A stretch of 64,000 nt of DNA, from NCBI RefSeq assembly GCF_009659535.1, contig NZ_VJZZ01000010.1, forward strand, positions 1 to 64,000. Direction: 5' to 3'. Below are positions 17,720 through 21,866 of this stretch, one piece after another (the first letter of the stretch is position 1; every line of letters begins with the position of its first letter). Position numbers and translations under genes: made by a program. The notes beneath the pieces were generated by a model that was given only the letters and a program-made list of their open reading frames with translations, ran no database searches and had not been told where the DNA came from. The DNA is from Aggregicoccus sp. 17bor-14 (GTDB lineage Bacteria > Myxococcota > Myxococcia > Myxococcales > Myxococcaceae).

Positions 17720-18000
17720 GTTGGCTTCCTCTCTTGAGAAAGTGTTGGCGCCGCTCGGACGCACGACTGAAACGGAGCATAGAACGGGAACTGCGGTTTC
17801 GCTCTGAGCGACCCGCCGCCGGTCTCCCTGCGCGCGCTCATCAGTCCAAGCTGATGCCGCGAGAGCAATGCTTGGACGCGAGTCATTGCAAGTGGGCGTG
17901 CCACACGACTGCAAGGCTCCCTCACGGTAGTCGACGTGCGGCGCTAAGCGCGGCGCCGCCAGCCCGCGAGCGTGTTAGAGGCCCGTCTAGGCGTCATCGA

Positions 18001-18008
18001 GAGAGGAG
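18001..18008 (+). promoter_or_regulatory. ribosome binding site of sthA
   Basis: GAGAGGAG ends 5 nt before GTG 18014. It selects this GTG over the in-frame GTG at 17972, which would add 14 residues ahead of the conserved flavoprotein start. Confidence 0.6.
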
Positions 18009-18013
18009 TTCGC

Positions 18014-19429
<1,416 letters not shown>

Positions 19430-19449: not shown

Positions 19450-19869
19450 TCAGGCCCTCGCCTTGCGCGCAGGCTTCGCCTTCTTCGCGCCATTGAGCGC
19501 TGCCGCTTCGCGCACGAGCGACTTGAACGCTGCTGCGTCCACCTTCTCGCCCTCGCGGATGTCGATGGCGCGGCGCGCGTTGCCCTCGAGGCTCGAGTTG
19601 AAGAGCTTCGAGGGGTCGGAGAGAGAGGCGCCCTTGAGGAAGGTGAGCTTCACCACGCTCTTGTAGGACTCGCCGGTGCAGAGGATGCCGCCGTGCGACC
19701 ACACCGGCGTGCCCATCCACTTCCACTCCTCGACCACGTCCGGAACGGCGTCCCGGATGAGCTTGCGCATGCGGGCCAGCGTCTCCCCGCGCCAGTCGCC
19801 GAGCTCGGCGATGCGCTGCGAGATGAGCTCCGAGGCCGACGGGGCTTCGCTCGAGACGGTCTTCTTCAT
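19450..19869 (-). CDS. DUF1801 (YdhG-like) protein
   Basis: A 139-residue protein, last of a four-gene operon; its ATG overlaps the stop of the DoxX gene (ATGA at 19866-19869). The family fold shows in [40 protein letters not shown] and [19 protein letters not shown]. The Lys/Ala-rich tail [12 protein letters not shown] is common in the family. DUF1801 proteins are small and of unknown biochemical role, often encoded beside SRPBCC and ArsR genes, as here. Confidence 0.8.
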
Positions 19870-20270
19870 GCGCCCACCGCGAGGGCGGGGGAGGAGGCGG
19901 GCGCGGCCTCGAGGCGGCGCCAGCAGGCGTACGAGACTGCCCAGAGCACGCCGGTGCCCACGGCCCAGCCCCACGACTGCGGCCCGTCACCCACCGCGAA
20001 GTGCGCAATGAGCGCGGAGACGAGGCAGATGGCGAAGCCCGCGTAGGCCCACTCCTTCAGGCGCGCAGGCACGGGCGCGAGCAGCACCGCAATGCCGATG
20101 AACTTCGCCCACGAGAGCTCCTCGCGGAAGTAGCCGGGGAAGCCGAGGTGGGTGAAGGCCTCCGCCACCTGCGGCAGCGCGAGCTGCGCGTATGCGGTGA
20201 ATCCAATCTGCAGGCAGAAGAGCGCGGTGACGGTCCAGTAGGCGGCGCGAACGGCTTTGCTGGGGGGCAT
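19866..20270 (-). CDS. DoxX-like membrane protein
   Basis: A 134-residue inner-membrane protein with four predicted helices, including [54 protein letters not shown] and [35 protein letters not shown] between helices 1 and 2 is typical of the DoxX-like family. It begins 2 nt after the SRPBCC gene ends and overlaps the DUF1801 start, so it is translated as part of the ArsR-led operon. The family function is unclear; links to oxidative stress and membrane quinone reactions are known in relatives. Confidence 0.8.
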
Positions 20271-20272
20271 GA

Positions 20273-20839
20273 TCAGGTCCTCGGGAAAGGGGGAGAGGGC
20301 TGCGTGGAGAGACCGAACTGTGCTGCGTACTCCTTGTGCAGGCGCTGCCAGCCGTCGAACTTGAAGGCGTCCATGCCGACGAGGCGGCCGAGGGGCTCTC
20401 CGGCGAGCGCGTGCTCGAGCACGTCGAGGCAGATGTGCCAGCCCGCGGCGCCCATGGCGATGAAGCCGCGGTCGATGTTGTGCCAGAGCGTGAGCCGCGT
20501 GCCCGCCTCCGCCGTCGGCTCGAGCTCCCAGCGCATGTCCTGGCTGCCCCAGGTGACCTCGAGCACGCGGGGGGCGTCTGCCCGCTTCACGCGGCTCTCC
20601 ATGACCTGCGGCGTCGGAGTCCCGACGGTGGTGAGGTTCACGCTGCCGGTCGTCACGAGGCTGCGGTCCGAGTCATAGGGCGCCCACTCGCGCAGGTGCT
20701 CGGGCTGGGTGATCGCCTCCCACACGCGCTCGGGCGGGTGGCGCAGGTCGCGCACGAGCACCAGCGTCCACGCGTCTCCGTCCTTGCGGATCTCGGCACC
20801 GGAGGCAGCCCCCGGCGCGTATCGCTCACGTCTGATCAT
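20273..20839 (-). CDS. SRPBCC/AHSA1-type protein
   Basis: A 188-residue START/Bet v1-like protein. VLVRDLRHPPERVWEAITQP, HLREWAPYD, LEVTWGSQDMRWELEP and TRLTLWHNID are the characteristic strand and cavity-lining segments of AHSA1-like SRPBCC proteins. These bind a hydrophobic ligand; the ligand here is unknown. The ATG at 20839 overlaps the ArsR stop (ATGA), so the two are translationally coupled. ArsR-SRPBCC pairs are common in bacteria. The regulator probably responds to a signal linked to the SRPBCC ligand, which is inferred. Confidence 0.85.
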   Translation of the reverse strand: MIRRERYAPGAASGAEIRKDGDAWTLVLVRDLRHPPERVWEAITQPEHLREWAPYDSDRSLVTTGSVNLTTVGTPTPQVMESRVKRADAPRVLEVTWGSQDMRWELEPTAEAGTRLTLWHNIDRGFIAMGAAGWHICLDVLEHALAGEPLGRLVGMDAFKFDGWQRLHKEYAAQFGLSTQPSPPFPRT

Positions 20840-21150
20840 CGCTTCTTCTCCATCTTGTCGAGGTGACGCTCCAGCGCGTCCACGTGCTTCGACCAGTAGC
20901 GCCGGAAGGGGATGAGCCAGGCATCGATCTCCATGAGGGGCTCGGGCCGCAGGCGATAGAGGCGCCGCTGCGCCTCGACGCGCGCCTCCACGAAGCCCGC
21001 CTCGCGCAGCACCCGCAGGTGCTTGGAGACGGCGGGCTGCGAGAGCTGCAGCTCCTGCTCGAGCTCCCCCACGGAGCGCTCCGAGGAGAGCAGCAGCCCG
21101 AGAATGGCGCGCCTCGTGGGCTCGGCGACGATGGTGAACGATGACTCCAT
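20836..21150 (-). CDS. ArsR-family transcriptional regulator
   Basis: A 104-residue winged-helix repressor: TIVAEPTRRAILGLLLSSER, VGELEQELQLSQPAVSKHLR (recognition helix) and LREAGFVEARVEAQRRLYRL (wing). The C-terminus PFRRYWSKHVDALERHLDKM is the dimer helix. No metal-binding cysteines are present, so it belongs to the non-metal group that pairs with SRPBCC proteins. It leads a four-gene operon and sits directly behind a palindromic operator that overlaps its promoter, so it very probably represses itself and the operon. Confidence 0.9.
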   Translation of the reverse strand: MESSFTIVAEPTRRAILGLLLSSERSVGELEQELQLSQPAVSKHLRVLREAGFVEARVEAQRRLYRLRPEPLMEIDAWLIPFRRYWSKHVDALERHLDKMEKKR

Positions 21151-21155
21151 GGCCC

Positions 21156-21179
21156 GTATATAACCATCGGGTTATATAC
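21156..21179. promoter_or_regulatory. ArsR operator: 10-bp perfect inverted repeat
   Basis: GTATATAACC (21156-21165) and GGTTATATAC (21170-21179) form a perfect inverted repeat around ATCG. It starts 5 bp upstream of the arsR ATG and covers the -10 element, so a bound dimer would block RNA polymerase. It is strikingly AT-rich for this genome. Confidence 0.75.
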
Positions 21180-21186
21180 CTGTCAA
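21158..21186 (-). promoter_or_regulatory. promoter of the arsR operon, probably leaderless
   Basis: On the minus strand TTGACA (21181-21186) is followed after exactly 17 bp by TTATAT (21158-21163). The ATG starts 7 nt after this -10 box, where transcription should begin, so the arsR mRNA would have little or no leader. No ribosome binding site fits in the gap. A shift of the -10 by one base (TATATA) is possible. Confidence 0.6.
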
Positions 21187-21344
21187 GGCATGTTGGCGCC
21201 ATCGGGCGACTTTACGTGTCGTGTGGTTGTGTTTACCACCCGTGAATATGCCCAGCGGGCCCCCGTCGAGTCGGGACGTCCGGACGGGGAGGGGCAGCAG
21301 ATGACCTCGTCGGCCGGCGCTCCCCGTTGCTCCCGAGGCCTTCC

Positions 21345-21866
21345 GTGAACGCACTCTCCCGTTGCCGCACGACTGTCCTGCTTGCCTCTCTCGTCGCCGC
21401 GCTGACCGCTTGCGGCGGCAGCGACGACCCGCAGGACCCGGCAGAGCAGGGCTCGGACAACGCCTCGATTCTCGGCACCAACGCGGCCACCTTCGCCGAG
21501 GCGAACGAGACGGGTAACAACACCGAGGCCACCTCCGAGGCGACCAGCTACACGCTCGACGCCAATGGCCTGCGCATCTCCGGCAAGTTCGAAGCGGGCA
21601 CGCCGAGCACCGACTACTTCCGCTTCCACATCGGCACCGGCACCCGTCTCGACGTCCAGGCCTTCGTCGACGGCGTGAAGCAGACGCAGGAGACCACGCA
21701 GGCGCGGCTCACCATCAACGCCCTCGTGGACGACGGCTACTCCACGCTCACCGGCTACGGGAAGTTCATCAACGCGGGGCTGCCGGTCGCGAACCGCGAC
21801 TACGTGATCGGCATCAGCGGCAAGGCGGGCGCGAGCTACACGCTCGAGCTCAGGGCCGCGCAGTAG
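21345..21866 (+). CDS. lipoprotein of unknown function
   Basis: A 173-residue lipoprotein. The GTG at 21345 precedes a short basic region, the hydrophobic stretch TVLLASLVAALTAC with lipobox Cys23, and a GGSDDPQDP linker typical of outer-membrane lipoproteins. The mature domain looks beta-rich: YTLDANGLRISGKFEAGTPS, DYFRFHIGTGTRLDVQAFVD and NRDYVIGISGKAGASYTLEL. This resembles pre-peptidase-type beta-sandwich domains that follow secreted enzymes, but no catalytic part is present. It is monocistronic and ends at a strong hairpin shared with the convergent aldehyde dehydrogenase gene. Confidence 0.75.
   Translation: MNALSRCRTTVLLASLVAALTACGGSDDPQDPAEQGSDNASILGTNAATFAEANETGNNTEATSEATSYTLDANGLRISGKFEAGTPSTDYFRFHIGTGTRLDVQAFVDGVKQTQETTQARLTINALVDDGYSTLTGYGKFINAGLPVANRDYVIGISGKAGASYTLELRAAQ

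Follow-up and report, generated by a model that had tools for sequence, protein, structure and literature searches.

The 64-kb stretch of DNA analysed here (the window) carries a four-gene operon on its minus strand. The first gene (20836..21150) starts with an ATG at 21150 and encodes an ArsR-family repressor of 104 amino acids (PF01022 HTH_5, E 3.3e-17; NF033788, 83.2 bits against a cut-off of 55) that contains no cysteine. It is followed by genes for an SRPBCC/AHSA1-domain protein of 188 amino acids (20273..20839; PF08327, E 4.8e-12), a DoxX_2 membrane protein of 134 amino acids (19866..20270; PF13564, E 7e-15) and a DUF1801 protein of 139 amino acids (19450..19869; PF08818, E 1.7e-21). A preliminary description of this DNA had the four genes joined by ATGA overlaps or a 2-nt gap, and the joints read exactly so: arsR and the SRPBCC gene share an ATGA at 20836–20839, the SRPBCC stop codon TGA (20275–20273) is separated by TC from the DoxX ATG at 20270, and DoxX and DUF1801 overlap in a second ATGA at 19866–19869. 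The operon is flanked by two genes of the plus strand. A convergent gene at 17972–19429 encodes a Si-specific NAD(P)(+) transhydrogenase (NF003585, 695 bits), and a divergent lipoprotein-like gene with a GTG start at 21345 occupies 21345–21866. No homologue of the lipoprotein gene lies beside arsR in any fetched relative locus, and on that ground the notion that the arsR promoter region is shared with it was rejected.

Relatives were gathered by the ArsR protein alone. The collection comprises the best 80 of at least 476 confirmed matches among public-genome loci, all 66 places in the 60 genomes with a match at E <= 1e-25 from a phylum sample of 195 genomes, three plasmid loci and seven paralogues from the window's own genome. 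Of 158 stretches, 153 loci (window included) remained once three duplicates and a further two copies identical with the window had been discarded. Corallococcus loci among the public genomes duplicate those of relatives from the window's own family, which would place the window in Myxococcota and probably in Myxococcaceae. The main set consists of the 125 loci with at least 55% identity (window included), and the 28 loci below 55% are counted apart. Two groups serve for finer comparison: the close loci (n = 59, at least 66% identity) and the own-phylum loci (n = 60, window included). The start of each arsR was placed, blind to any promoter, at the ATG, GTG or TTG nearest to the aligned first residue. 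The SRPBCC gene follows arsR directly in 102 of the 125 loci, the window counted among them; a further 18 loci have room for the gene and hold no match to this SRPBCC. DoxX and DUF1801 lie downstream in 43 and 33 of the 125, respectively, in a set where many fetched loci are short and end early.

The regulator is assigned to the ArsR/SmtB type by PF01022, which it matches with 62.5 bits (cut-off 22). The model of the SdpR autorepressor family, NF033789, gives 56.4 bits and has a cut-off of 100. By sequence, the nearest solved structures (E 1e-13) are 3f6v and 3f6o, ArsR entries from structural genomics that appear to be unpublished. The name ArsR should not be taken to imply that arsenic is sensed. 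A metal-thiolate signal is unlikely for a protein devoid of cysteine, and the proteins of the 59 close loci have either none or one. The NCBIfam name of the matching regulator model, 'metalloregulator ArsR/SmtB' (83.2 bits), might suggest a metal-responsive resistance operon of the ars type; the scarcity of cysteines and an operon free of efflux and reductase genes make that interpretation very hard to sustain.

Read 5' to 3' on the minus strand, the region upstream of arsR contains ACAT (21193–21190), the -35 element TTGACA (21186–21181), ATAT (21177–21174), a -10 region that includes another ATAT (21161–21158), CGGGCC and then the ATG at 21150. The preliminary description had read a promoter here as TTGACA (21186..21181), a spacer of 17 bp, TTATAT (21163..21158) and 7 nt to the ATG (21150..21148). 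All of these elements are present on the minus strand; only the register needs adjustment. The hexamer conserved in relatives is [C/T]ATAT[A/T/G] at -12..-7, one base away from TTATAT, and corresponds in the window to TATATA (21157..21162), with a spacer of 18 bp and 6 nt to the ATG. Either register fits TATAAT poorly (3 or 4 of 6 positions). A strict sigma-70 scan of the window found no promoter, because it accepts only A as the second base and T as the sixth. Such scoring also missed the -10 of the arsR relatives, whose promoters were instead located from two anchors, TTGAC and the start codon. An in-frame TAA stands at -24 of arsR, and the stretch between it and the ATG holds no start codon, so arsR cannot start upstream of 21150 and downstream of the TAA. 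With a -10 hexamer that ends at -7, transcription would be expected to begin at the first base of the start codon. The predicted transcription start is the A of the arsR ATG, at the C(-1)A(+1) step (21150..21151).

The same geometry recurs across the main set. TTGAC lies exactly 36 nt before the promoter-blind start in 84 of the 125 loci, 37 nt before it in 11, 38 nt in three, 35 nt in one, and 40 and 43 nt in two each; the remainder of the 110 nt upstream contains only two further cases. In about 24 of the 125, the interval -35..-40 relative to the promoter-blind start holds no TTGAC, and eight have no TTGAC-like element 35–38 nt from any candidate start. Mean information in the 59 close loci is 0.71 bits at -45..-1 versus 0.11 at -110..-61. 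Conservation in these loci drops outside -44..-7, with the exception of a C at -1. This base precedes the start codon in 59 of the 60 own-phylum loci, where C has a background frequency of 0.36 and 40 genes start with ATG and 20 with GTG. Bacterial transcription start sites favour a pyrimidine before a purine, so the conserved C points to a +1 at the start codon itself.

Shine–Dalgarno (SD) signals are distributed unevenly over the operon. SD-like 4-mers (matches to AAGGAGGT at -20..-5) precede arsR in 12 of 59 close loci and in 28 of the full 125. The corresponding counts in close loci are 48 of 49 for SRPBCC, 11 of 33 for DoxX and 22 of 34 for DUF1801, and in the window GGAG precedes the SRPBCC ATG. 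Several of the matches before arsR are the operator's own GAGG or AGGT, which lies upstream of the -10 and would be outside the message. Because DoxX starts also have an SD sequence in only 11 of 33 cases, its absence alone is weak evidence. The leaderless start at about the ATG that had been proposed for arsR is favoured by the combination of a promoter-to-start distance of 36–37 nt, the C at -1, the weak SD signal and the in-frame TAA at -24. It is unlikely that the ATG-proximal promoter is real while arsR is not strictly leaderless, owing to a very short leader (1–10 nt) or an additional promoter upstream. The exact start is not readable from sequence, and the paralogue at locus L004 in the same genome has its TTGAC 39 nt before the ATG, a distance that would imply a leader several nucleotides long. 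Against this stand the fixed 36-nt spacing together with C(-1), and the lack of conservation beyond -45 (about 0.1 bits).

The promoter predicted for this leaderless start is overlaid by a perfect inverted repeat, GTATATAACC-CGAT-GGTTATATAC, at 21179..21156 of the minus strand. Its arms match at 10 of 10 positions, as the 10-bp repeat over the -10 had been described, and it is the proposed ArsR operator. The repeat is absent from 100 dinucleotide-shuffled versions of the window even when up to three mismatches are allowed. The whole 64-kb window holds four inverted repeats with arms of at least 10 and a gap of at most 8, just one of which is AT-rich; three Markov controls gave 0, 0 and 0 AT-rich repeats.

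Perfect 10-bp arms were considered as a feature of the family and rejected. In the 91 of 125 loci with TTG at -36, arm positions outside short ATAT boxes pair about as in shuffles, or barely better, so the perfect arms of the window represent local perfection. The boxes themselves are spaced by exactly 16 bp in 139 pairs, where shuffles expect 0.03, and by exactly 32 bp in 47. Box occupancy was counted in the same 91 loci: positions -43, -27 and -11 hold ATAT in 43, 86 and 67 of them, respectively, and all three do so in 39. Within the window, box 2 (ATAT, 21174..21177) lies in the promoter spacer and box 3 (ATAT, 21158..21161) in the -10, and together they make up the 10-4-10 repeat (21156..21179). 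Box 1 (21190..21193), upstream of the -35, has the degenerate form ACAT that is found in 22 of the 91 loci, and the three-box match at 21158–21193 contains one mismatch. A dyad centred on the -35, with the consensus ATATGCC-TTGACA-GGCATAT, is made up of boxes 1 and 2; boxes 2 and 3 form the dyad that was noticed at the outset. The conserved feature, a predicted operator, is a series of ATAT boxes that follow one another at 16-bp intervals across the -35 and the -10 and often number three, and the perfect palindrome is peculiar to the window's genome. Sharing of box 2 by two dimers would be difficult, and the dimers may compete or cooperate.

The self-repression suggested by the preliminary description is supported by the conservation of these predicted boxes over the -35 and -10 and, by analogy, by the autorepression demonstrated in experiments on another ArsR–SRPBCC operon, Rv2034 (available text of PMC3338718). 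A different regulator might bind the palindrome, or the boxes might be promoter elements only, with no autorepression in either case. The ATAT in the -10 doubles as a promoter element, and its conservation can in part be explained without a repressor. Boxes 1 and 2, however, lie outside the core hexamers, the 16-bp periodicity is exact (139 pairs versus 0.03 expected), the boxes accompany arsR across phyla, the genome has no second full operator copy, and Rv2034 offers a precedent. An explanation of this kind is therefore improbable.

Autorepression by the operon's own ArsR would be a local affair. Across the whole genome (6,922,639 bases), the operator has no copy with up to three mismatches besides the one at 21156–21179. 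Relaxed operator patterns match nothing beyond the arsR promoter, except one weak site with two mismatches at C13:159892. A genome search had been envisaged as a means of listing a regulon; it returned the operon's own promoter and this single weak match, and no wider regulon. Given an operator that is found once in the genome, the regulator appears to be a local autorepressor limited to its own operon and not the hub of a regulon.

The operon is probably both leaderless and autorepressed, with transcription predicted to start at the arsR ATG and an ArsR-family dimer on the inverted repeat shutting its own promoter. The proposed mechanism would run as follows. (i) Initiation by RNA polymerase would take place at the A of the arsR ATG or at most one or two bases away. 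(ii) The ribosome would initiate on this 5'-terminal start codon without an SD site. (iii) The SRPBCC, DoxX_2 and DUF1801 proteins would be made from the same message via internal initiation sites. (iv) The ArsR-family dimer, made first, would bind the inverted repeat over the spacer and -10, turning off its own promoter; the weaker upstream box before the -35 is probably bound too.

An arrangement of this kind is already known; the new details are a rigidity that runs through the whole family, the array of boxes and the use of GTG in Myxococcota. The acuR-acuI-dddL operon of Rhodobacter sphaeroides, according to the available text of PMC3017554, begins with the gene for its autorepressor, has an inverted repeat over its promoter and yields a transcript mapped exactly to the AUG; acuR lacks an SD sequence and the later genes possess one. 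The operon of the window likewise has its repressor gene first, an inverted repeat overlapping the promoter, and SD sequences that are weakly represented before the first gene and regular before the second (12 of 59 versus 48 of 49 close loci). It differs in that AcuR is a TetR-family protein with acrylate as inducer and a mapped transcription start, whereas here the regulator belongs to the ArsR family and the start is predicted from sequence. The same text cites two further repressors made from leaderless messages, as proposed for the window: lambda CI and Tn1721 TetR, whose protein families and operators are unrelated.

The Rv2034-Rv2035-Rv2036 operon of Mycobacterium tuberculosis is autorepressed via an 8-4-8 palindrome, and the footprint extends from -30 to +3, as given in the available text of PMC3338718. 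Both operons have an ArsR gene followed directly by an SRPBCC-type gene (polyketide_cyc2 in M. tuberculosis) in overlapping frames, and an inverted repeat with a 4-bp spacing adjoining the start codon, which the Rv2034 footprint reaches; this is a likeness of layout. The operons differ in the arm (CCGTAAGT for Rv2034) and in the third gene. The available text of PMC3338718 contains no three-box array, nor does the word 'leaderless' occur in it. In Deinococcus-Thermus, a -10 directly before the start codon drives leaderless messages as a common, phylum-wide pattern (available text of PMC12340547). That is a general property of a phylum, and neither Myxococcota nor ArsR occurs in the text available. 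The open-licence literature on leaderless ArsR operons or leaderless Myxococcus starts yielded no member of this ArsR family besides Rv2034, and no start-site work in Myxococcota was found in open-licence sources.

On balance, we lean towards regarding the repressor, operator and start codon of Myxococcota, Actinomycetota, Chloroflexota, Pseudomonadota and others as one evolutionarily rigid module, in which ATAT boxes stand exactly 16 bp apart over the -35 and -10, two overlapping dyads share the middle box and TTGAC keeps a distance of 36 nt to the start codon. One short block would then hold together the sites of transcription start, translation start and repression, a case made here from sequence only. 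The spacing of the block is kept across phyla in which the similarity of the flanking DNA is lost. Leaderless ATG and GTG starts are robust in mycobacteria, and GTG is weak in Escherichia coli (available text of PMC4633059). If the proposed layout is true, the GTG found in a third of the own-phylum loci would imply leaderless initiation on GTG in Myxococcota, as in mycobacteria and unlike E. coli, where it hardly occurs. Leaderless translation in Myxococcota, GTG included, is thus a prediction for which the promoters of the relatives are a ready test set.

More distant relatives retain part of this layout. Among the 28 loci below 55% identity, TTGAC lies 35–37 nt before a candidate ATG or GTG in 12 and does not in 16; none of the seven paralogues in the window's own genome has this spacing. 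Eleven of the 12 are 41–49% identical, mostly alphaproteobacterial, and have TTGAC 35–36 nt before an ATG, with a repeat of the type ATAACC-N4-GGTTAT on the start codon itself. In these eleven the operator-like repeat has moved and the predicted promoter-to-start distance has not. Within the group L078–L089 (41–49%, mostly Alphaproteobacteria), where the start codon is overlain by the operator-like repeat, several loci have an extra GGTTA half-site in the first arsR codons. The own-genome paralogue L004 (C2 near 565,200; 1819–1852) is an ArsR–SRPBCC pair with a perfect 34-bp palindrome of 17-bp arms and no gap. This palindrome lies between TTGACG and the start codon, and its last three bases are the ATG. 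Locus L090, on a megaplasmid of Caballeronia sp. SBC2, is a betaproteobacterial case in which arsR is 77% identical to that of the window, SRPBCC and DUF1801 accompany it and the promoter layout is the same; the module may have been transferred horizontally together with its promoter.
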